From contig CACKOU010000010.1 of NCBI GenBank assembly GCA_902601895.1, positions 1-44,661 of the forward strand: 44,661 nucleotides of DNA, written 5' to 3'. The translations under genes and the position numbers were made by a program. Origin of the DNA: an uncultured Pelagibacteraceae bacterium. Its GTDB lineage: Bacteria > Pseudomonadota > Alphaproteobacteria > Pelagibacterales > Pelagibacteraceae. Positions 7,279 through 42,104 of this stretch are shown piece by piece. Position 1 is the stretch's first letter. Each line of letters opens with the position of its first letter. The notes beneath the pieces are model-generated. The model ran no database searches. It saw only the letters and a list, made by a program, of their open reading frames with translations, and was not told the origin of the DNA.

Positions 7279-7932
7279 TTATTGAGAAGAAAAATAGATA
7301 TTTTGATAATAAGTAATTGATTTTTGCTTTGAATTATCTGTATCTGACATGATCGCTATCCCATCCAGCTCATTAACATCCAAATTATGGAATTTTTTGA
7401 AATCATCTTTAACATTTGCTTTAACAGTTACCCACTCATTTAAGTTTGTTTTGGTGGTTGCAAGGACATTATCTATGGACTTTTTAGTATATGGGCTTGG
7501 AAAGTTGCTTCCAACTTCTTGATTACTCGAAAAAACGTAATTTATTGCTCTATTGGATAAAGGTGTTGCCCCAGTTTTTTTAATGACGAACACTCTTCCT
7601 GCAAAGTCATGACCTTTTTTAGTTGTTTCATCTATCCCTGGTATATCTTTCTCAATTTTCCAGGTAATATTTATGAAAGGGGTTTTGTTTAAATCAATTT
7701 TAATCTCCTTACCGAGGCCAGAAGCGGCGTTATCTGCAATAGCTTTTAAGTAATTGCCATTCTCGTTAGATCCAACTGAATATGTCGTTTTATTATCTGC
7801 CCCTCTTACTTTTCTAACTGTTAATTCTGATAATTCTTTGTCTGTAAACTCAAATACTTTTACTTCCTCGGCATACAAGGTAGTTTGAGACAACATTGTC
7901 ACTAAAATTAATTTAAATAAAAGTCTAAACAT
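7279..7932 (-). CDS. Secreted DUF3047 protein
   Basis: Predicted periplasmic protein of 217 residues with a signal peptide (FRLLFKLILVTMLSQTTLYA, cleavage before EE). The body matches the DUF3047 pattern: a central GHDFAGRVFVI strand, RAINYVFSS, then SPYTKK and a C-terminal DGIAIMSDTDNS followed by YYQNIYFSS. The family has no established function; the layout suggests a beta-sandwich carbohydrate-binding-like fold. It lies 16 bases upstream of the thioesterase gene on the same strand and may be cotranscribed. Confidence 0.75.
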   Translation of the reverse strand: MFRLLFKLILVTMLSQTTLYAEEVKVFEFTDKELSELTVRKVRGADNKTTYSVGSNENGNYLKAIADNAASGLGKEIKIDLNKTPFINITWKIEKDIPGIDETTKKGHDFAGRVFVIKKTGATPLSNRAINYVFSSNQEVGSNFPSPYTKKSIDNVLATTKTNLNEWVTVKANVKDDFKKFHNLDVNELDGIAIMSDTDNSKQKSITYYQNIYFSSQ

Positions 7933-8027
7933 GTCCTTTCTATATAAAAGATAAAATAATTTTCAAATTCAAAATTTTGACATTATTTAAACATGCATAA
8001 ATCATTATTGTTCTCTATTTAGAAGAT

Positions 8028-8159
8028 ATGAAGTTAGCAGTTCTTTTTGGTTTGATGATTTATTGGTCTATAATTATATCCGCACCTGTTATTTCAAAAA
8101 ATTCTGAAAAATTTGGAGAAAAAAAGGTATTAGTACCTCTTAAAAAACCAAGAATTTAA
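8028..8159 (+). CDS. 43-residue single-pass membrane peptide
   Basis: Small ORF opened by ATG at 8028, with AGAAG at 8021-8025 just upstream, and ending TAA at 8157-8159. The product begins MKLAVLFGLMIYWSIIISAP, one hydrophobic segment or uncleaved signal, followed by a basic, lysine-rich tail ending KKPRI. It fills the gap between the DUF3047 gene (divergent) and the alcohol dehydrogenase gene (convergent, four-base overlap). Function unknown. Support is the ribosome site, the signal-like composition and the fit into the gap. Confidence 0.55.
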   Translation: MKLAVLFGLMIYWSIIISAPVISKNSEKFGEKKVLVPLKKPRI

Positions 8160-9160
8160 GGCAGAAGCACTATCTTTGGGGACGAACAGGTTCCATCATG
8201 AATTTCTTTAAAAGCTCCCCACCCATCTTTAAGATTTCTGTACTCAATCCACTCTATCTTCCCTAGCTTGTTATTAGTTAAAATATCAATGGTTTCTCCA
8301 AATTCTTTGTTTGTGTAACAATAAGTCCCAATAAAAGTTACTTCTTGAAGAGTTGCTTTTCTGAAATTAAAAGATCCTGCAGGCTGAGTTAGTCCGATAT
8401 GAACTATTATTCCTCCTGGTTTTACTACACTGATTGCCTGTTGTCGTGAAACTTCGAGTCCAACAGTATCAAAAACTAAATCAAAGCTGCTCTCTTTAAT
8501 ATCGTTATGATCTGGTGACACTGTTTTTGCATCTACATATTTTGAGCATTCATTTAGTCTTTTTTGATTAGGATCAGAAATTGTCAAATTTGTATTACCT
8601 TGGATCTTGGATAAAATTAATGCACACAAAAGACCAATTGCTCCACCACCCTGAACAAGCGTTCTACATTCATTTAATGGTTTTTTTGATGCATCTACAG
8701 CTAATAATACTGCATGATATGAAACTGCTGTTGGTTCTGCAACTGCAGCCTCTTTTACATCAAGTTTTTCAGGAACTTTGAAAATATTGTGATCTGGAAC
8801 TGTAATGAGTTCTGCAAATGCACCTTGCCTTTCATAAGGTCTATTCATTCCTAGAAGAACTCTATCTGGACATAAATGTTCTCTTCCGCTTTTGCAGTAT
8901 TCACAATTTCTACAAGTTATTAATGGGTTAAGAACTGAAATTTGATCTTTAAGCTTACCGTTAATTATTTGACCACTAACTTCATGACCTAAAATTAACG
9001 GTGGGATTCTTCTCTCATCTTTTCCGTGGTAAGCATGCATATCTGAGCCACATATACCTGATGCATGAACTTTAAGAATACTTTCTCCAGGTTTTTCAGA
9101 AGGTTCTTTTTCCTCCCTAAATTCCATTTCTTCTACACCAGTATAAACAAGCGCTTTCAT
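8156..9160 (-). CDS. Zinc-dependent medium-chain alcohol dehydrogenase
   Basis: NAD(P)-dependent dehydrogenase of the sorbitol/threonine dehydrogenase-like MDR group, 334 residues. The catalytic zinc site is GICGSDMHAYHG (Cys37) plus GHE (His59). The four structural-zinc cysteines are C83, C86, C89 and C97 (CRNCEYCKSGREHLC). The nucleotide-binding glycines appear as VQGGGAIGLL. It starts two bases after the NCS1 permease stop, as the last gene of the TRAP-1 operon, which suggests it oxidises the imported compound or a product of it. The exact substrate cannot be read from sequence. Confidence 0.88.
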   Translation of the reverse strand: MKALVYTGVEEMEFREEKEPSEKPGESILKVHASGICGSDMHAYHGKDERRIPPLILGHEVSGQIINGKLKDQISVLNPLITCRNCEYCKSGREHLCPDRVLLGMNRPYERQGAFAELITVPDHNIFKVPEKLDVKEAAVAEPTAVSYHAVLLAVDASKKPLNECRTLVQGGGAIGLLCALILSKIQGNTNLTISDPNQKRLNECSKYVDAKTVSPDHNDIKESSFDLVFDTVGLEVSRQQAISVVKPGGIIVHIGLTQPAGSFNFRKATLQEVTFIGTYCYTNKEFGETIDILTNNKLGKIEWIEYRNLKDGWGAFKEIHDGTCSSPKIVLLP

Positions 9161-9162
9161 GA

Positions 9163-10617
9163 TTACTTATTATTTAATAAATAATATACTAAATAAGATG
9201 CGAATGCTCCAATAATCCAACCAAAAGATTGATATTGTATAAAGTTTTCATTCAGCAAAGATGATAATGAAAATATTGATCCAATTAAAAGAGCATACAA
9301 TGCTTTGAGGTTCCAACCGTTACTGTAAATATATTCTGTATGTTCTTTAGGATAAAAAAGCTCTTTGTGATTAATTTGTTGTTTTTTAAACAAGTAATAA
9401 TCTGCAACCAATACTCCAAAAATTGGGCCAAAAGTCGTAGCTACAGCTTCAACAAATATCAAAACATTAGCTTTACTGAAAATTGAAAGCCAAAATGTTG
9501 AAATAATTAATCCAACAATTGATATTACAATTCCTGTTTTTTTTAACGTTAAAGAGTTCGGGAAAAAATTTATCAATGTATTTTGCGAAGGAATATAATT
9601 TGCTATCAAATTAGTTGATAACGAAGAGATAATAATAAATATCAAACAAAAGAAAGTTAAAAAATTATTATTAAATTTACCGACTATGTCATTTGGATTT
9701 GTAAGTATACTTGAAGCGTTTAATCCTTTACTGGTGAGAATAATATCTGAACCTAAAGTGATCAAAACAGAGAAAAAAGAAAAGAATATTAAATTTAATA
9801 TTATACTTAAGTTTCCTTTGGTCATCTCTTTATAATTCATTGAGTATCTAGAAAAATCACCAAATGTGAGGAGAACTATAGCAAAATAAGCAAATAAAGT
9901 TCCTGTGATTGAAATTATTGGAGCAATATTTGACTGAATTGCAAAATTGCTAAAGACTAAGCTTAGTTTTATTCCATTTAGGAGTTCATTGTAATACTCA
10001 GATAAAATAACAATTAATAAAACAGATAGCCCTAAATATATTGAAAGACCTGAAAAATTAATAAATGATTTTAGAAAATTCTGTCCTTTTGTAAAAAGAA
10101 TGTATTGAAATATTAATGTTAAGAATAAACAAACCCAATCAATTAAATTCAAGCCAAAAAAGAATAATAAAAATATTTCATTCTGCAAAAGTTGATTATC
10201 AATTTTAAATATGATGATCCTTGCAATATAACCTAGTGATTTTGATATAAAAAATGTTTGTACACCAAACATGAATAAACCAACTAATCCTCTGATCATT
10301 CCTACATATCTCGCTCCTGTAAAACCCATTGAAAGTCTAAGAATTGCTGGAAAACTTAATCCACTACTTTGAGAAATTTTTCCAATGATGTTAGCAAAAA
10401 AGAATACTAATAATCCTGCTAGCAATGATCCTGTTAAGACAACAAAAAAATTTAGATCATAAAATAAATATAAAGCTGATATTAAAGAGAACCCAACAAT
10501 TGTTTGAATATTTATAGCCCAAAAGTTAAAGTAATTTTTCCAACTCCAGTCTCGATTATTAGGATTTATTGAAACTAGTTCCCAATTCCTTAATTGAAAT
10601 TTTTCGCTCTGATTCAC
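9163..10617 (-). CDS. NCS1-family permease
   Basis: Integral membrane transporter of 484 residues with about twelve hydrophobic segments. NCS1 (nucleobase-cation symport) marks are the N-terminal NRDWSWKNYFNFWAINI, FPAILRLSMGFTGARY in the third segment, LLTFGDFSRY in the middle, and VLVADYYLFKK near the C-terminal third. The family imports purines, pyrimidines, hydantoins, allantoin, thiamine and similar compounds by sodium or proton symport. It lies between a TRAP transporter and an alcohol dehydrogenase on one strand, so its substrate may be part of the same pathway. Confidence 0.88.
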   Translation of the reverse strand: MNQSEKFQLRNWELVSINPNNRDWSWKNYFNFWAINIQTIVGFSLISALYLFYDLNFFVVLTGSLLAGLLVFFFANIIGKISQSSGLSFPAILRLSMGFTGARYVGMIRGLVGLFMFGVQTFFISKSLGYIARIIIFKIDNQLLQNEIFLLFFFGLNLIDWVCLFLTLIFQYILFTKGQNFLKSFINFSGLSIYLGLSVLLIVILSEYYNELLNGIKLSLVFSNFAIQSNIAPIISITGTLFAYFAIVLLTFGDFSRYSMNYKEMTKGNLSIILNLIFFSFFSVLITLGSDIILTSKGLNASSILTNPNDIVGKFNNNFLTFFCLIFIIISSLSTNLIANYIPSQNTLINFFPNSLTLKKTGIVISIVGLIISTFWLSIFSKANVLIFVEAVATTFGPIFGVLVADYYLFKKQQINHKELFYPKEHTEYIYSNGWNLKALYALLIGSIFSLSSLLNENFIQYQSFGWIIGAFASYLVYYLLNNK

Positions 10618-35375: not shown

Positions 35376-36809
35376 CTATAATTTTTGTCTATATTCATAA
35401 GTTTTATTTAATTCATCAATATCAAATGATTCTATTGATCCATCAGTCCATTTAATTTCAACTTTAAAGTCTTTTTCACCTTGCCTTATTCCATAATGAG
35501 CTACTGGTTCCATCTGACATAGATAACCTGAGCCAGCATCTATTGTTTTTGAATGTATTCTTTTATTAGATTTTATTGTTACTGTTGCCCCTCTTGCTGG
35601 AGCTCCATACAGATTAAGTGGTTTAATTCGTAAATAATTAAAATTTGTAATATCTGCTTTATATAAAGTTAACGGTTGAAACCCTGACTCACCATGTGAA
35701 ACTAATAGTTCTAAAATTCCATCGCCATCAACATCTGCAACAGCTGCACCTGTACCAAGACCAACTGTCTCTAAACCATTTTCCATTTTAATTTCTTTAA
35801 ATATTCCACCCTCTAAAACTTTGAAAAGTTTATTTGGTTCTCCAATATTATTCATGAAAATTTCATCATATCCATCATTATCAAAATCAGCTGAAATAAC
35901 TGTTCTAATTTTAGTAGGATCATTATATGGAGATGTTGATATATCTTTAAATTTATCTCCATCTAAAACATATGCTCTATGCATTCCATCCCAGTTTGAA
36001 GATAAGATATCTAATCTTCCTCTATATAAAAGATCACTTAAAGCTGTGCCTCTACCATTTTCAAATCTATCTTGAACTGCATACTCTTTAGCTACATCTT
36101 GGAAAGAGCCTTTTGAATTATAGTATAAAAAATTGTCTCCTCTTTCATTTGCTGCAAAAATATCAGATCTATCCGAAAGAATATGTCCTGAAACAATAGC
36201 TCTACCTCCAGTAATTTTATCAATTGATAATGATTTAGCTTGATCTTTTATTCGATCTCTAATTAATTCATAAAATCGAGTAGGACCTCCATAATTTGCA
36301 ACATAAATACCATATGCACCATCACCATTTCTATCTACACAAACAACTGACCTTCCAGCCGTTAGGTTTAATTCACTTTGATTAATTTCTTTTTCAAATA
36401 AATCCTCAAATTTATTATTATTTAAATCTATTAATCGATCAGAATAGATTTTTGATCCACTATATGTATCTGTATTTAAAAAATATATTTCTTCATAACC
36501 ATCTTGATCGATATCACATGCAGCGACACCAATTGTTCTTCTTTCTTCATCTGTAAATATTTTTTCATTTACTATATTTATTAATTTTCCATCTTTATAA
36601 GAAAGAGCTAGATTTTTAAAACCAAAGCCAGTTACCACAAAATCATATTTATTATCCTTGTTTACATCGGTAACTGAAACTCCATAACTCAATCGAAACT
36701 CATTTTCTGCTATTTGATCAGTTATATTTAGGAAAAAATCTTTAGCGTTAGCATAATTAAATACCGATAAAATACTGAGAAAAATGAAGATAATTTTTTT
36801 CATACTCAA
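35376..36809 (-). CDS. Secreted FG-GAP/VCBS repeat protein with ASPIC/UnbV domain
   Basis: A 477-residue secreted protein of the CRTAC1 type. The signal peptide follows the second Met (KKIIFIFLSILSVFNYANA); the first Met (MSMKK) is two residues earlier. Calcium-binding FG-GAP loops recur: DVNKDNKYDFV, DIDQDGYEEIYF, DRNGDGAYGIYV, DFDNDGYDEIFM and DVDGDGILELLV. The C-terminal ASPIC/UnbV domain has PLNLYGAPARGATV and ends in WTDGSIESFDI. It likely folds as a beta propeller outside the cytoplasm, in adhesion or polysaccharide contact. It stands alone, so no partner is indicated. Confidence 0.85.
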   Translation of the reverse strand: MSMKKIIFIFLSILSVFNYANAKDFFLNITDQIAENEFRLSYGVSVTDVNKDNKYDFVVTGFGFKNLALSYKDGKLINIVNEKIFTDEERRTIGVAACDIDQDGYEEIYFLNTDTYSGSKIYSDRLIDLNNNKFEDLFEKEINQSELNLTAGRSVVCVDRNGDGAYGIYVANYGGPTRFYELIRDRIKDQAKSLSIDKITGGRAIVSGHILSDRSDIFAANERGDNFLYYNSKGSFQDVAKEYAVQDRFENGRGTALSDLLYRGRLDILSSNWDGMHRAYVLDGDKFKDISTSPYNDPTKIRTVISADFDNDGYDEIFMNNIGEPNKLFKVLEGGIFKEIKMENGLETVGLGTGAAVADVDGDGILELLVSHGESGFQPLTLYKADITNFNYLRIKPLNLYGAPARGATVTIKSNKRIHSKTIDAGSGYLCQMEPVAHYGIRQGEKDFKVEIKWTDGSIESFDIDELNKTYEYRQKL

Positions 36810-36853: not shown

Positions 36854-37051
36854 TTACTCAAGTAAACCTAGAATTGAATAAATAACTAACCCTATAATTG
36901 CAGCAAAGAAAATTAAAAAAGAAATTTGACTAAAAATATTATTCTTTGATCTAATTTCTCCCTTTTTGTACTTTCTAATCTGGATTATGCCAAATCTAAT
37001 AACTATTAAACCAAGAATTAACAAGGATACTTTAAATAAGAATTCAATCAT
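36854..37051 (-). CDS. Small two-helix membrane protein
   Basis: About 65 residues from the ATG at 37051 (MIEFLFKVSLLILGL), with membrane helices at about 3-20 and 40-60 separated by a basic loop (RKYKKGEIRSK). A reading from 37096 would add MYLTNGWKIIRKIKK, which lies inside the end of the upstream gene. The internal start overlaps that gene by eight bases (AAAATGATTGA), typical of coupled translation. No family recognised. Confidence 0.6.
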   Translation of the reverse strand: MIEFLFKVSLLILGLIVIRFGIIQIRKYKKGEIRSKNNIFSQISFLIFFAAIIGLVIYSILGLLE

Positions 37052-37592
37052 TTTTTTTATTTTTCTTATAATTTTCCATCCATTTGTTAAATACAATTAT
37101 TGCATCATTCATGTCTTTTGTTTTATTTGGATGATTTTTAGCTCTACCTAACATAGTTGCAATAACATTTACTTGATATTTTATTGGTCTTTTTTTTATA
37201 GCTGAAACAGTAAATAATGCTTTCTCCTTATCTTTAAAACCTAAGCCATTTAAGGTTGTCTCTGGTTTATAATCTGAAAATAAAGAAAGATTTAATGGTT
37301 TAAATTTTTTATCTTTGATTAGTTTATTCATTGGCATTTTATCGACTATTTCAAAGATTTTTTTTGTATATATTTTATCTAACTCAATTTTTATTTTGCC
37401 ATCAAAACCAATTAAAGTAACTTTAAATTTTTTTGATTTATCTAATTTCGTAACTAATTTTATATATCTTTTGTGAAAGCCTTTAATTTCTTTTTGATAC
37501 AATTCTTTTGATCTTTTATATTCTGGATGACTGTAATTAGGCGTGTTAAGGAGTAACAATCTACATTTCCATAGATATTTTTTAAAATTCAT
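37044..37592 (-). CDS. DUF4174-like protein with an extra C-terminal module
   Basis: A 182-residue basic protein. Residues 5-95 follow the DUF4174 pattern: WKCRLLLLNTPNYSHPEY, a central FKVTLIGFDGKIKIEL strand pair, and KIFEIVDKMPMNKL, which resembles a thioredoxin-like fold. Residues 105-180 form a second, helical part (LGFKDKEKALFTVSAI, then VIATMLGRAKNHPNKTKDM) that I do not recognise. No signal peptide is obvious, although DUF4174 proteins are often secreted. It is followed by the small membrane protein gene with an eight-base overlap. Confidence 0.65.
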   Translation of the reverse strand: MNFKKYLWKCRLLLLNTPNYSHPEYKRSKELYQKEIKGFHKRYIKLVTKLDKSKKFKVTLIGFDGKIKIELDKIYTKKIFEIVDKMPMNKLIKDKKFKPLNLSLFSDYKPETTLNGLGFKDKEKALFTVSAIKKRPIKYQVNVIATMLGRAKNHPNKTKDMNDAIIVFNKWMENYKKNKKND

Positions 37593-37601
37593 TAAAAAAT
37601 A

Positions 37602-40193
37602 TTAATTATAAATTTTGTCTCTTACAAGCTTACTTAATAAACTGTATCCAAGTTCGTTCATATGTAATGGATCTTCATCGTAAAACTTATCATAACCTGC
37701 ATTTATCATGGGTGTTGTAATATCAACGTAATCCCACATTTTTAAATTGGTTAAGTGTTTTTTTATCTTTGAATTAGCATCTAAAATTGTTGTCATAAGA
37801 TCCCTTCTAAAAGGACTAGGCTTAATTGAAATAAAAAAACATTTCGCTTTTGGTAGTTTTTCTTCAACTTGATTAGAAAATAATAAAAATTCTTTTAATA
37901 ATTCATCACTATCCATTCCATAACCAATATCATTATCTCCAGCATAAAAGAAAAGATTAGATGGGTTTAAAGGAGCAACCAGTCTATCAAAATATCTTCT
38001 ACAAGATACTAAAGTTGAACCCCCAAAGCCTAAATTATAAAGATTATTTATTGATAAATCGTTTTTAGCATTATCCCACATTTTAAAAGTCGAACTTCCA
38101 TACAGGGCAACACTGTTATTTGTTTTCGTCTGTTGAAAAGAATTATGTTCTAATTCTCTAACGTCGAGCTCAAACTCTTCCTCAACTGGACTAACTAAAT
38201 TTACATTAGTTTTCAAATTCTCTATTTTGTCTATGTTGTCTTGAACATTTTTAGCCAAATCAATTGCTTCTTCTACATAAGATCTAAATTTGGTTCTATA
38301 ATTATCTAAGAAGCTTTTCATTTCCTCTTGATTTTCTGGATCTTTGACATGATCACTTATAGTTATTGGCTCCTTAATAACTGCTGAATATATTGTTTTA
38401 GAAACTGGATAATCAAAATTAGCAAGGGCAATTGGAATTAGTTTTGGTTTAGGATTCAGTTTAAATGCAAGATTAAATGCTCCAGCTTTAAATGGTCCTG
38501 GAGATGTTATTGTTTTATTATCTTCTGTTTCTGATGTTCCTTCGGGGGCAATTACAATCGGTTGTTTTTGATTAAATACCTTTTGAGCTTCGTCAAAAAG
38601 CTTTTGTTTTCTTAATTTCTTTTCCTCTTCGCTTTCGTCCAACTTATCAGACTCTGGGGTATGAACAAAAATGTAATCTAAATTTTCATAGTAATTATAT
38701 CTCCAAAATTCTGTGTTCCGACTTGTTCTAACGATACGTTGGCCTCCATCGTTATATTTTGGATATAAAATTTTTGAACTGATGAAATGACTGTCGATTG
38801 AAAACGAATGCCCATTTGCAAGCTGATTATCATCTATAGCTGCTAAGTGATTGTAGAAAAAAATATTTGTTGGTTCATCTGGCAAATTTTCCCAACCCTT
38901 AATTACATATTTAACATTATCAAAAGCTTTGGTGAAATTTGAATTGGTTAACTCTCTTAATTTTGTTTTATCTGAATTACTAGAAGAATTTGAAACTCTA
39001 TTATAAATAATATTTAATTGGCTGTGGAAACGAGACTCTCTTTCTAAATTATTTAAAGTATCTTTTATTAAACTAGATAATGATTTTTCTATTTCATTTC
39101 CTTTAATAAGTAGTTCGTAAACCACATCAAATGCCATTGCGTAAGTATGAGTACTCTTCAATAAATGTGGAATACTATATAACTTAGAACTAGCAGGTAT
39201 TCTTGCAGTATTATCTTTCAATAATAAATTAACAAATTCTAATTCGTTTTCCGCTGAATATTTTGTCAGACCAGTTGCACTTTGTTGAAAACGTCCTAAC
39301 TGCCACAATTGTCTTTTGAAAATCTTTATTGATAATTCTGGGTCAGAAATAATCAGATTTTCAAGTGCTTCGTTAGAAATATGTAAAACTTTTGTATCCC
39401 TAGTAGATTTAATTGTGTATGGATTAAAAAAATCTCCTTTCCCTGAAGATAAAGTTAGCGCAATACCAGCTCTAGTTAGAGTTCTAAAATTTCTTCTTAT
39501 TTTTCCATTAATAAAGTTGTGGAATAAGCCATCAACTTTACCACTTAATAATATCTTTAAACCTTTAGAAACGTCTCCCTCTTTAACTATATATTGATTT
39601 GATGAATACATCTTAATATTACCTAATTTAATAAACTTTTCTAAGTCATTATCAGTAAGTGTTGAAAAAAAAGTAGCAGATTTAATTCTATGTATATTTG
39701 TAATACTTTTTTCTGATGGGATGCCTGGAGAAATTTGTATTTCATGATCTTTATACAAAGTGTTTAAATTTCTTGAAGAGACAAGCAGTTGGAAAGAAAA
39801 AAAAGAAATTGCTGAGTATAATGTTGATATAAGTTTACTATTTTTTTGTTGTAAATCTCTTAAATCATCTAGTTTTATCGAGATATATTCTGTTCCACCT
39901 TCAATAAATATTTCACCCATAAATCTATTGGGTTGATTAAGTCCAGATATACCTAATGGTGTTGCAGGCTTTGTTATTTTTGCAAAGGTTATAGATTTAG
40001 TTTCAAAATACTTGGTAAATGTAGCTTTGCCTTTAATTAAAAAATAAATGTTTTCTGAAATTTGATGCTGCTTTGCTAAAACTTCATCACTTGCAGCTAT
40101 TATGTGCTCTGATATTCCATCTATTAGTCCAAAAGATTCTTTTAGACTTCCTAAATCAAAGCCATTTTGCTGAAATAATTCAGATAATTTCAT
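37602..40193 (-). CDS. Three-module protein: cNMP-binding-like, PlsC-type acyltransferase, SGNH hydrolase
   Basis: 863 residues in one frame. Residues about 1-140 and 170-310 look like two cyclic-nucleotide-binding-like domains (ENIYFLIKGKATF; EGDVSKGLKILLSGKVDG), without the usual Arg of the phosphate cassette. Residues 310-430 are helical. Residues 440-600 are a PlsC-type acyltransferase with NHxxxxD (His449, Asp454), APEGTSE (550-555) and IPIALANF. Residues 692-863 are an SGNH hydrolase: YGSST (Ser700/701), NLGFGGSTL, AGDNDIG (Asn754) and DPLHMNELGY (Asp841, His844). All catalytic motifs look intact. Acyl transfer or deacylation on a lipid or glycan, controlled by the N-terminal sensor, is an inference. 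Confidence 0.8.
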   Translation of the reverse strand: MKLSELFQQNGFDLGSLKESFGLIDGISEHIIAASDEVLAKQHQISENIYFLIKGKATFTKYFETKSITFAKITKPATPLGISGLNQPNRFMGEIFIEGGTEYISIKLDDLRDLQQKNSKLISTLYSAISFFSFQLLVSSRNLNTLYKDHEIQISPGIPSEKSITNIHRIKSATFFSTLTDNDLEKFIKLGNIKMYSSNQYIVKEGDVSKGLKILLSGKVDGLFHNFINGKIRRNFRTLTRAGIALTLSSGKGDFFNPYTIKSTRDTKVLHISNEALENLIISDPELSIKIFKRQLWQLGRFQQSATGLTKYSAENELEFVNLLLKDNTARIPASSKLYSIPHLLKSTHTYAMAFDVVYELLIKGNEIEKSLSSLIKDTLNNLERESRFHSQLNIIYNRVSNSSSNSDKTKLRELTNSNFTKAFDNVKYVIKGWENLPDEPTNIFFYNHLAAIDDNQLANGHSFSIDSHFISSKILYPKYNDGGQRIVRTSRNTEFWRYNYYENLDYIFVHTPESDKLDESEEEKKLRKQKLFDEAQKVFNQKQPIVIAPEGTSETEDNKTITSPGPFKAGAFNLAFKLNPKPKLIPIALANFDYPVSKTIYSAVIKEPITISDHVKDPENQEEMKSFLDNYRTKFRSYVEEAIDLAKNVQDNIDKIENLKTNVNLVSPVEEEFELDVRELEHNSFQQTKTNNSVALYGSSTFKMWDNAKNDLSINNLYNLGFGGSTLVSCRRYFDRLVAPLNPSNLFFYAGDNDIGYGMDSDELLKEFLLFSNQVEEKLPKAKCFFISIKPSPFRRDLMTTILDANSKIKKHLTNLKMWDYVDITTPMINAGYDKFYDEDPLHMNELGYSLLSKLVRDKIYN

Positions 40194-40445: not shown

Positions 40446-41903
40446 TTACCTTCTTTGAGATAAGCTCGCGTGTTTATTTAATACTTCAGCTGAAATAATT
40501 TTTGCTTCTGTTGTTTTCTTAACATTCCAGATTTTTTCTTTCGCAATTTTTGTTGATATTTTATTATCAACTACTGGTGAAGGATAATCTTTACCAATTT
40601 CTAAATTTATACCCTTTTGTTCAATGAATGTTAATTTCCATGGTTCATGAACTAATTTTCCTGGAACGTTTTTTAATTCTGGAACCCATTTTTTAATAAA
40701 TTCTCCTGTAGGATCTTGATCAATTGATTGTTTAATTGGATTGTAAATTCTTATTGAATTTATTCCTGTTGTTCCTGATTGCATTTGAAACTGTGAATAA
40801 TGAATACCTGGCTCATAATCTGTAAATAATTTTGCTAAATGTTTTGATGTTTTTTTCCAATCAAGCCATAATTGATAAGACGCAAATGAAACTAACATTG
40901 CTCTCATTCTAAAATTAATCCATCCATTAGTTCTAAGGTACCTCATGCAAGCATCAACAAAAGGATAACCAGTAGTTCCTTTTTTCCATGCTAAATGATA
41001 ATCTTCATTAAAATCATTTTCTCTTATTCCATTGTAAGCGCTGTTCATATTTCTAAATTCAATTTCTGGTTCATCATATAACTTTTGAATAAAATGACAG
41101 TGCCAGGCTAAGCGACTTTTAAAAGCAATTAAGGATTTCTTTTTTGAAAAAGATAAATTGGATTTTAACTTATCATTAGTTTTTTTAAAAATTTCTTTAA
41201 TAGAAATATTTCCAAATGCAATATGTGGACTTAATCTAGAACATGAAGTTTCTCCTGTTATTGGTGAAGACATTTCTTTTTGATAGTTTTCTGATCTATC
41301 ATTAAGGAAAGAATCTAAAAGTTGAATTGCTTTTTGTCTTCCACCAATTTGAATTTTGCCATTTTCTAAATTATTTGTTTCTATTTTTGATAAATCCTCT
41401 TCATAATTATCAGAAATGAACTCACAATTTAAATTTGAATTAATGCTTTCACTATCTATGAATTTATTCCAATTATATGACCATTTATTTCTTATTCTAT
41501 GATTTAGTTGAACGCCAAATTGATTTGATATTTTCCAATTAATGTTTTTTTCTTTAAATAAAAAACTAACTTCTTTATCTAAGTTAGTTATATACATGTT
41601 CTTGAATATTATATTTGAATAAACCTCATTTATTTTAAATTTATCAGTTAAATGACTTAAAATTTCTAATGTATCTCCGTAATATATATTGAGTTTAGCA
41701 TTATATTTTTCACTTAGTGTTTTTGATAAATCGTCTAATGATGATTTTAAAAAATCTAGATGGAATGAGCTTGATGTAGGTAATTTGTGATATTCTTTAT
41801 CAAATATGTAAATTGGTAAAATCTTTCCTGATTTTACAGCCTCATTAAATGCATCATTATTAGATACACGTAGATCGTTCCTGAACCATACGATTTTGTT
41901 CAT
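40446..41903 (-). CDS. phr: Cryptochrome/deoxyribodipyrimidine photolyase
   Basis: Light-driven DNA repair or light-sensing flavoprotein of 485 residues. The antenna domain starts with the family hallmark KIVWFRNDLRVSNN. The FAD domain has GETSCSRLSPHIAFGNIS, YPFVDACMRYLRTNGWINFR, and QMQSGTTGINSIRIYNP. The GTTGIN signature differs from the class I CPD photolyase AGTGTDA and puts it in a less-studied bacterial subgroup. It lies nine bases downstream of a 63-residue ORF. A UV-repair role fits surface-ocean life. Confidence 0.9.
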   Translation of the reverse strand: MNKIVWFRNDLRVSNNDAFNEAVKSGKILPIYIFDKEYHKLPTSSSFHLDFLKSSLDDLSKTLSEKYNAKLNIYYGDTLEILSHLTDKFKINEVYSNIIFKNMYITNLDKEVSFLFKEKNINWKISNQFGVQLNHRIRNKWSYNWNKFIDSESINSNLNCEFISDNYEEDLSKIETNNLENGKIQIGGRQKAIQLLDSFLNDRSENYQKEMSSPITGETSCSRLSPHIAFGNISIKEIFKKTNDKLKSNLSFSKKKSLIAFKSRLAWHCHFIQKLYDEPEIEFRNMNSAYNGIRENDFNEDYHLAWKKGTTGYPFVDACMRYLRTNGWINFRMRAMLVSFASYQLWLDWKKTSKHLAKLFTDYEPGIHYSQFQMQSGTTGINSIRIYNPIKQSIDQDPTGEFIKKWVPELKNVPGKLVHEPWKLTFIEQKGINLEIGKDYPSPVVDNKISTKIAKEKIWNVKKTTEAKIISAEVLNKHASLSQRR

Positions 41904-41912
41904 TTTAAATAA

Positions 41913-42104
41913 TTAAAGACTGATTTTGAAAGTTCTTGAAGTTTTGTCGTCTGATACTTTTAAAATTTTAAATTTTGAAGTTTTTTCAAGTTTTTGCCCT
42001 TTGTTTGTAACAAAAGATTTCATTTTCTTAACTTCACCCTCAGGCATTTTTCTTGTGTATTTTAAAGTATGTTTTTTTGATCCAATAACAAATATTGTTT
42101 TCAT
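41913..42104 (-). CDS. Hypothetical 63-residue lysine-rich protein
   Basis: Short basic protein, MKTIFVIGSKKHTLKYTRK at the start and KVSDDKTSRTFKISL at the end, with lysine at about one residue in five. No signal or membrane segment. It lies nine bases before phr on the same strand, so it may be a passenger in that message or a small nucleic-acid-binding protein. A 62-codon ORF runs opposite. The ribosome site is weak; I could not name a family. Confidence 0.45.
   Translation of the reverse strand: MKTIFVIGSKKHTLKYTRKMPEGEVKKMKSFVTNKGQKLEKTSKFKILKVSDDKTSRTFKISL

Follow-up and report, generated by a model that had tools for sequence, protein, structure and literature searches.

A conserved fusion of tandem CNB domains, a PlsC/GPAT-like acyltransferase and an SGNH hydrolase in SAR11 and distant bacteria

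Introduction

In proteins of the neuropathy target esterase type, cyclic-nucleotide-binding (CNB) domains stand ahead of a lipid hydrolase of the patatin type. Here we describe a gene in which CNB domains are joined to two other enzyme-like domains. It lies in a stretch of 44,661 nucleotides (hereafter the window; contig CACKOU010000010.1) from an uncultured Pelagibacteraceae bacterium of the SAR11 group, whose members are among the most abundant bacteria of the ocean; the genome assembly is 1.16 Mb and 84% complete. The encoded protein carries two CNB domains, a helical linker, an acyltransferase of the PlsC/glycerol-3-phosphate acyltransferase (GPAT) type and an SGNH hydrolase, in this order from the N-terminus. 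Unlike the neuropathy target esterase type, it has SGNH and PlsC parts, and a Pfam scan gave no patatin match.

The enzymatic parts have described relatives. PlsC/lysophospholipid acyltransferases (PF01553), which include soluble plastidial GPAT and bacterial PlsC, share with the window protein a Pfam match, the NHx4D and PEGT motifs and fold matches, but the window protein is joined to CNB and SGNH domains, has no clear membrane segment and belongs to a family in which the acid of HX4D is not conserved. SGNH/GDSL hydrolases (PF13472), such as those like lysophospholipase L1 or O-acetylesterases, share its intact catalytic blocks. In AT3-SGNH (OafA) and MBOAT-SGNH (PatA/PatB) systems an acyltransferase is described as joined or paired with an SGNH partner for surface-polymer acylation (PMC7448272, PMC12148441). 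In contrast, the fusion uses another acyltransferase family, has neither an AT3 nor an MBOAT match in the Pfam scan nor a multi-pass membrane domain, and adds a sensor.

Another point of comparison is PlaF, a membrane-bound phospholipase A1 proposed as a bacterial Lands-cycle enzyme for acyl remodelling of endogenous glycerophospholipids (PMC9132575). In that 2022 paper, the bacterial pathway that exchanges acyl chains of existing phospholipids is called unknown, with its acyltransferase unidentified. Whereas the acyltransferase partner of PlaF is unknown, the fusion would hold both halves in one chain, and a protein with candidates for both Lands halves plus a sensor would make bacterial acyl exchange testable with one purified enzyme. 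A first reading of the DNA letters without database searches (the sequence-only reading) knew of no described system with this domain order, and neither did our full-text literature search find a description of the architecture or its SAR11 occurrence, a result that is suggestive only, as most subscription papers lie outside its coverage. One retrieved paper speaks of other fusions (PMC12419801).

Results

One open frame with two CNB, an acyltransferase and an SGNH domain

The fusion is encoded by a single open reading frame (ORF) with an ATG start and zero internal stops. The sequence-only reading had delimited the same 863-residue frame exactly, without saying that it lies on the minus strand. 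Its assignment of two CNB-like domains, a PlsC-type and an SGNH domain was borne out by fold searches and by per-domain Pfam profiles, all above the curated cut-offs: PF00027 (cNMP_binding) in two stretches, the best at residues 195-282 (37.9 bits against 27.5), PF01553 (Acyltransferase) at 502-590 (31.1 against 23), and PF13472 (Lipase_GDSL_2) at 715-851 (33.8 against 32.9). His449, PEGT 550-553, Ser700/701, Asn754, Asp841 and His844 are found at the positions given for them. The linker also contains positions kept family-wide. The maximum 19-mer hydropathy is 1.53, leaving the protein without a clear membrane segment in this sequence scan.

Relatives are encoded by 117 stretches of genome_contigs, and the best 80 of these 117 were analysed. 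Their identities fall in bands of 95-100% and 55-57%, with one at 85%. The same domain order recurs at full length at each of these levels and at ~30% identity, and homologues of 29-57% identity keep the frame open over its whole length. Against the 85% identical copy (L046), codon positions 1, 2 and 3 differ 105, 46 and 348 times, and third positions lead the differences in all five counted segments, as expected under protein-level selection. A chance frame is thus rejected by the 117 stretches and the frame open at such divergence, and the gene is a genuine, conserved fusion. The doubt that the domains might be found together only as artefactual joins of separate genes is answered by this conservation across many assemblies and by the congruent trees described below.

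Two structures were predicted, one of the full-length protein (mean predicted local distance difference test score, pLDDT, 58.6) and one of the acyltransferase only (mean pLDDT 59.1), the latter because the full model was too weak in the acyltransferase part. From these low-confidence models, the structural check foreseen in the sequence-only reading recovered the PlsC/GPAT and tandem CNB folds. In the full model, 11 of 15 ten-residue blocks of the first CNB domain reach a pLDDT of at least 70, and Foldseek matches the model to the tandem CNB domains of PKG/PKA regulatory subunits (E ~5e-12 to 1e-7 among the matches listed). When a profile of the N-terminal and PlsC parts was searched against the PDB, 235 matches were obtained; the 60 listed are all CNB chains, with no acyltransferase among them.

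Residues of the acyltransferase and SGNH domains

Soluble plastidial GPATs are the best structural matches of the acyltransferase model, itself of low confidence: 8ia1 (Z 11.2, rmsd (root-mean-square deviation) 4.2, 208 aligned), 1k30 (Z 10.4, rmsd 4.0, 205 aligned) and 1iuq (Z 9.9, rmsd 4.4, 212 aligned). They are followed by PlsC 5kym (Z 9.1, rmsd 3.4, 148 aligned) and GPAT1 8e4y (Z 8.3, rmsd 4.3, 197 aligned). These top five VIA matches are thus all GPAT or PlsC, and the sixth is unrelated (Z 6.7). Foldseek also ranks 1iuq, 1k30 and 8ia1 at the top, with E values between 1.3e-3 and 6.8e-3, all above 0.001.

Catalytic residues were compared in 16 family rows, in which f66, f118, f190, f216, g8 and g160 are lineage labels. 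His449 and Asp467 go together, both being retained in 14 rows and neither in the other two; Glu551 and Gly552 are retained in all 16, and Thr553 in 8. At position 454, the acid of HX4D, 5 rows have D, 3 have E (two of these without His449) and the remaining 8 some other residue. A tally of 78 distinct SAR11 and g160-type proteins gave 48 with D and 30 with E there, and both g8 rows have D.

On the SGNH side, Gly699, Ser700, Ser701, Gly725, Asn754, Asp841 and His844 are kept in 12/12 fused rows, and the window domain has the Ser, Gly, Asn and His blocks of its class. Ser701 is the most likely nucleophile: in an alignment made by eye, GSS-T is matched with the GDS-I of a standalone relative (L159). 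The claim of the sequence-only reading that all catalytic motifs are intact thus stands for the window sequence and for the SGNH domain, but not for the family, where the HX4D acid varies and the PlsC His is lost in f118. The residue conservation table suggests an acyltransferase that could well function in SAR11 but has decayed in one lineage, with the esterase as the more constant part.

Standalone SGNH relatives differ in one respect. A strongly hydrophobic 11-mer precedes the domain in 23 of 26 of them by a crude hydropathy scan, so that most look exported or anchored, whereas the SGNH domain of the fusion is internal and both the fused and the Persicobacter forms (see below) lack such a segment.

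The window's genome encodes one further PF01553 protein, of 235 aa; because of it, the fusion probably does not have the housekeeping role.

As a separate observation, the two f118 rows (G544, L126 8104-10788; G440, L127 1053-3710) have lost the PlsC His449, Asp467 and EGT Thr with their SGNH residues intact, resembling a "pseudo-acyltransferase in the making".

Distribution, split forms and trees

By genome search, protein matches were found in 5/61 close relatives, 21/297 genomes of the order, 19/385 of the class and 46/398 of the phylum; these sets are overlapping, and the window's own genome is counted in each. Distant matches mostly consist of SGNH alone or one CNB domain alone. Beyond the order, the class has full-length matches in G484 (56%) and in G544 and G440 (~30%), and the phylum has them in G840 and G825 (31-32%). 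A profile search of the order of G840 added two genomes of the same genus (G1117 and G1145), giving 4 of 115. The distribution is patchy yet wide. Viral carriage was rejected: of 249 places in viral_contigs that matched the pattern, not one codes for a relative.

Shorter and split forms also exist. A CNB-CNB-PlsC protein without SGNH is present in G712 and G715, 2 of 48 genomes of their order, and G507 has a 492-aa CNB-PlsC protein with a separate 157-aa CNB gene 3 nt upstream. No fused or adjacent SGNH was found in these three genomes, where distant copies were only partly scored. A plasmid search with the L165 and L166 proteins had a sole match, the record CP012852.1 of Persicobacter sp. JZB09 (Bacteroidota), where two tblastn pieces together span 92% of the query. 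The locus (L166) has adjacent genes for a 655-aa CNB-CNB-PlsC protein (7926-9893) and a 209-aa SGNH protein (9895-10524), both Pfam-confirmed. Persicobacter, G507 (CNB and CNB-PlsC as separate genes), G712/G715 and the fused forms give a series from separate genes to one chain.

Trees were built for the N-terminal plus PlsC part and for the SGNH part. The 12 fused rows fall on one side of a branch in both, with support of 99/97 in the former and 90/71 in the latter (94% of 200 bootstrap trees). The inner order is also common to both: SAR11, g160 and g8 together, then f118, then f216. Because both trees group the fused rows with the same inner order, a single fusion event followed by joint inheritance would fit. 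The f118 branch length is 2.75 in the N-terminal plus PlsC tree and 1.05 in the SGNH tree, and that of the SAR11/g160/g8 group is 1.02 and 0.84, respectively. The root and the placement of Persicobacter are unsure because of the long branches (Persicobacter, L111 and f118); a clade of fused and Persicobacter SGNH was not rejected (p-AU 0.521).

An esterase of another fold where SGNH is missing

In all three genomes without fused or adjacent SGNH, an AXE1-family esterase gene lies within 2.6 kb of the CNB-PlsC gene. First, in G712, the AXE1 and CNB-CNB-PlsC ORFs are convergent with a 21-nt overlap. Second, in G715, AXE1 is 2569 nt from CNB-CNB-PlsC with a PhoD-like gene between. Third, in G507, AXE1 is divergent from the separate CNB gene with 21 nt between. 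Searched for the AXE1 family, each of these three genomes yielded a single gene, the linked one; none was found in 13 of 14 SGNH-bearing genomes searched, the other (G440) giving a weak partial match of 24.2 bits. The chance of one AXE1 gene lying within 3 kb in a 5-Mb genome is estimated to be on the order of 0.2% per genome, for a query that was chosen after the loci were inspected. Because G712 and G715 share a family, the AXE1 evidence amounts to two independent lineages.

With SGNH fused or adjacent, or AXE1 nearby, every lineage examined therefore has an esterase partner, of either fold. Our reading is that the partner would be required and its fold exchangeable; the change from SGNH to AXE1 between lineages is a natural control suggesting that the partner esterase matters. 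The pairing of an acyl-adding with an acyl-removing type of protein, proposed in the sequence-only reading, gains support from the Persicobacter split genes and these AXE1 neighbours; its further inference was that one lipid or glycan would be remodelled.

The CNB pair and its ligand

The classical phosphate-binding cassette of CNB domains carries Glu and Arg. In domain 1, G81, S83, P88 and R90 (as P-x-R90) are kept in 15/15 rows holding the domain, and position 82 is I, V or W in place of the expected Glu. In domain 2, the aligned cassette Arg is not seen in the family alignment. Neither domain, though both the PF00027 match and the CNB fold are present, therefore has the classical combination. 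That the Arg is lacking, as the sequence-only reading held, fits domain 2 but not domain 1.

Class III cyclases were found in none of seven fusion-bearing genomes of the window's genus, a search that did not extend to other cyclase classes, and also in none of two g8 genomes, none of four f216 genomes and not in G544. They are present in G484 (2), G440 (1), G507 (36), G712 (13) and G715 (18). Because of the absence in the window's genus, cAMP or cGMP is an unlikely ligand in SAR11, barring another cyclase class, and a class III cyclase as the ligand source in SAR11 is unsupported. The earlier suspicion of a ligand other than a cyclic nucleotide is strengthened accordingly.

Photolyase-type neighbours in SAR11 and related lineages

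We compared 49 SAR11-type loci from genome_contigs, of which 47 reach the next gene on each side and 2 end earlier; L002-L005 were left out as repeats of genomes already included. A DUF4174 gene is next downstream in 47/47 of the loci reaching that far, and in 43/47 the first gene upstream encodes a photolyase in the same orientation. By a PF03441 search of 53 chosen genomes, the window's photolyase type (~230-241 bits, a band drawn by eye) is present in 21/21 fusion-bearing g1 genomes, of which 20 have it next to the fusion and one, G133, has it on a separate contig, and in 1/20 fusion-free g1 genomes; these counts are not independent because the genomes are close relatives. The fusion-free carrier, G070 of the window's genus, has a photolyase 65% identical to that of the window (L173 6918-8369).

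In the g8 genome G219, the fusion lies between a FAD_binding_7 gene (photolyase-C-terminal type) and a DCC1 plus DPRP pair, in a stretch that also holds SOD, MsrA, TspO, cyclopropane synthase (CMAS), DUF3833 and GTP cyclohydrolase I (FolE) genes. G287 has both photolyase-type neighbours by similarity; its DPRP (L129 5229-6720) is in two overlapping frames of 107 and 397 aa, either broken or a sequencing error. The same SDR, DPRP and photolyase-type genes recur in the SAR11 genomes G000 and G012, which lack the fusion. DPRP and the photolyase-type gene are separated by 0.4 kb in G000 (L174 8817-9216), by 5.3 kb of other genes in G012 (L175 5767-11088), and by the fusion plus the DCC1 gene in g8, so that the interval resembles a variable insertion site. 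Of the 20 g160-like loci whose upstream flank is complete, 19 have DPRP 3.6-4.8 kb upstream; 11 loci with a shorter flank were excluded.

Photolyase-type neighbours thus occur in three alphaproteobacterial lineages, SAR11, g8 and g160-like. A photolyase link for the whole family was rejected, the link being confined to this alphaproteobacterial group around SAR11. In Vibrio cholerae, blue light up-regulates photolyase-family operons and a cyclopropane synthase gene (PMC5241685), which makes a joint light-damage locus plausible. As a SAR11 gene that mostly adjoins a photolyase gene, the fusion could connect the damage done by light to DNA with that done to membranes.

A tentative deacylation-reacylation reading and its rivals

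Tentatively, and with more doubt than confidence, we read the protein as an enzyme of deacylation and reacylation (Lands type) that would be cytosolic, gated by a ligand and used in light damage. The C-terminal SGNH domain would cleave an acyl ester, and the PlsC/GPAT-like domain would re-esterify the freed hydroxyl from acyl-ACP (acyl carrier protein) or acyl-CoA (coenzyme A), so that both steps of a Lands-type cycle would be held in one chain. The enzyme would be switched through its tandem CNB domains by a small ligand, which in SAR11 is probably neither cAMP nor cGMP made by a class III cyclase. In alphaproteobacteria around SAR11, it would be used with photolyases and oxidative-stress genes, most simply for replacing photo-oxidised acyl chains of membrane glycerolipids. 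Catalysis by either domain, the glycerolipid substrate, gating, the cytosolic location and the light-damage role are the parts that we infer. The wider proposal is of an undescribed class of acyl-exchange machines, in which a CNB-gated soluble GPAT/PlsC is always paired with an esterase and, as a one-polypeptide Lands cycle in SAR11-group photolyase/oxidative-stress loci, renews light-damaged lipids; we consider it doubtful.

A number of observations weigh against the deacylation-reacylation reading. Both structure predictions are of low confidence, and the CNB pairs of the full model superpose poorly (rmsd 15-30 among the matches listed). Members from f216, f190, f66 and Persicobacter lack the HX4D acid, and in both f118 rows His449, Asp467 and Thr553 have been lost together; because of these losses, acyl transfer may not be the common function. 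The tested f216 and f118 members also fall below the PF01553 cut-off (14.1 and 15 bits). As to the substrate, the nearest solved SGNH relatives by sequence include 6njc, labelled sialate O-acetylesterase or lysophospholipase L1, and AXE1 is named for acetyl ester cleavage, so small O-acyl substrates would fit as well as phospholipids. As to the locus, 4 of the 47 SAR11-type loci (L024, L029, L033 and L046) have other genes upstream and no photolyase, and one g160-like locus (L082, 1/20) is without DPRP. The g8 site may be a generic insertion spot, because G012 has an unrelated insert at the same place. A photolyase near the gene was not seen in f216 (4 genomes), f118 (2, one gene being only 1.2 kb from a contig end) or G712, which have photolyases elsewhere; G715 has no PF03441 match, and the 5.5-kb contig of G507 is too short to judge.

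The strongest rival holds that the esterase is the working enzyme, regulated by the CNB pair, and that the PlsC/GPAT-like domain, its own catalysis not being needed, is becoming a module that binds the substrate or CoA/ACP. The SGNH residues are invariant in the fused rows while position 454 is D in only 5/16, the f118 rows retain the SGNH set after losing the acyltransferase residues, and the f118 branch is far longer for the N-terminal plus PlsC part than for SGNH (2.75 against 1.05), where the SAR11/g160/g8 branches are closer (1.02 against 0.84). However, His449 and Asp467 are kept in most rows and Glu551-Gly552 in all, an acidic residue stands at position 454 in all 78 SAR11 and g160-type proteins and in both g8 rows, and three genomes retain CNB-PlsC without a fused or adjacent SGNH. 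We regard this alternative as unlikely, if a serious one.

An acyl relay, in which PlsC loads an acyl group and SGNH hands it to a non-lipid acceptor, has a precedent in the AT3 (OafA) and PatA/PatB systems of surface-polymer acylation introduced above. But AT3 and MBOAT systems are membrane-embedded and act on cell-envelope polymers, and the fusion has no clear membrane segment and no match to either family; moreover, the replacement of SGNH by AXE1, an alpha/beta esterase, is easier to explain by hydrolysis. A relay is improbable on these grounds.

Another alternative is an editing or small-molecule cycle, in which a short acyl group such as acetyl is added to and removed from a soluble metabolite and the esterase clears wrong or surplus product. 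The 6njc relationship and AXE1 as the displacing partner speak for it, but the first matches of the acyltransferase model are glycerol-3-phosphate and lysophosphatidate acyltransferases, and we give it little credence. Finally, nothing was found in favour of an assembly error or of separate genes joined by artefact, either of which is next to impossible given the same open frame in many separate and diverged assemblies and the congruent trees of the two parts.

Features of the locus

Coordinates of the fusion, its domains and its neighbours are collected in Table 1.

Table 1 Features of the fusion locus, in window positions
Feature	Position	Strand	Remarks
CNB-CNB-linker-PlsC/GPAT-like-SGNH fusion gene	37602..40193	minus	863 aa; Pfam and full-length homologues
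First CNB domain	39744..40193	minus	residues 1-150, bounds approximate; G81-x-S83...P88-x-R90 cassette-like; model and Foldseek
Second CNB domain	39294..39743	minus	residues 151-300, bounds approximate; no cassette Arg seen; best PF00027 stretch 195-282
Linker	38934..39293	minus	residues 301-420; predicted mostly helical, low confidence
PlsC/GPAT-like acyltransferase	38229..38933	minus	residues 421-655; His449, Asp454, Asp467, Arg489, PEGT 550-553; PF01553 and fold search
SGNH hydrolase	37605..38180	minus	residues 672-863; Ser701, Gly725, Asn754, Asp841, His844; PF13472 and PDB relatives
DUF4174 gene	37044..37592	minus	182 aa, 9 nt after the fusion; Pfam match in two stretches
DNA photolyase gene	40446..41903	minus	485 aa, on the strand of the fusion and 252 nt before it

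Two further genes of the window recur at these loci. A 63-aa ORF directly upstream of the photolyase gene (41913-42104) has no Pfam match, and a homologue flanks 40/49 SAR11-type loci. A 477-aa FG-GAP/UnbV_ASPIC repeat protein is encoded at 35376-36809, and its homologue flanks 46/49.

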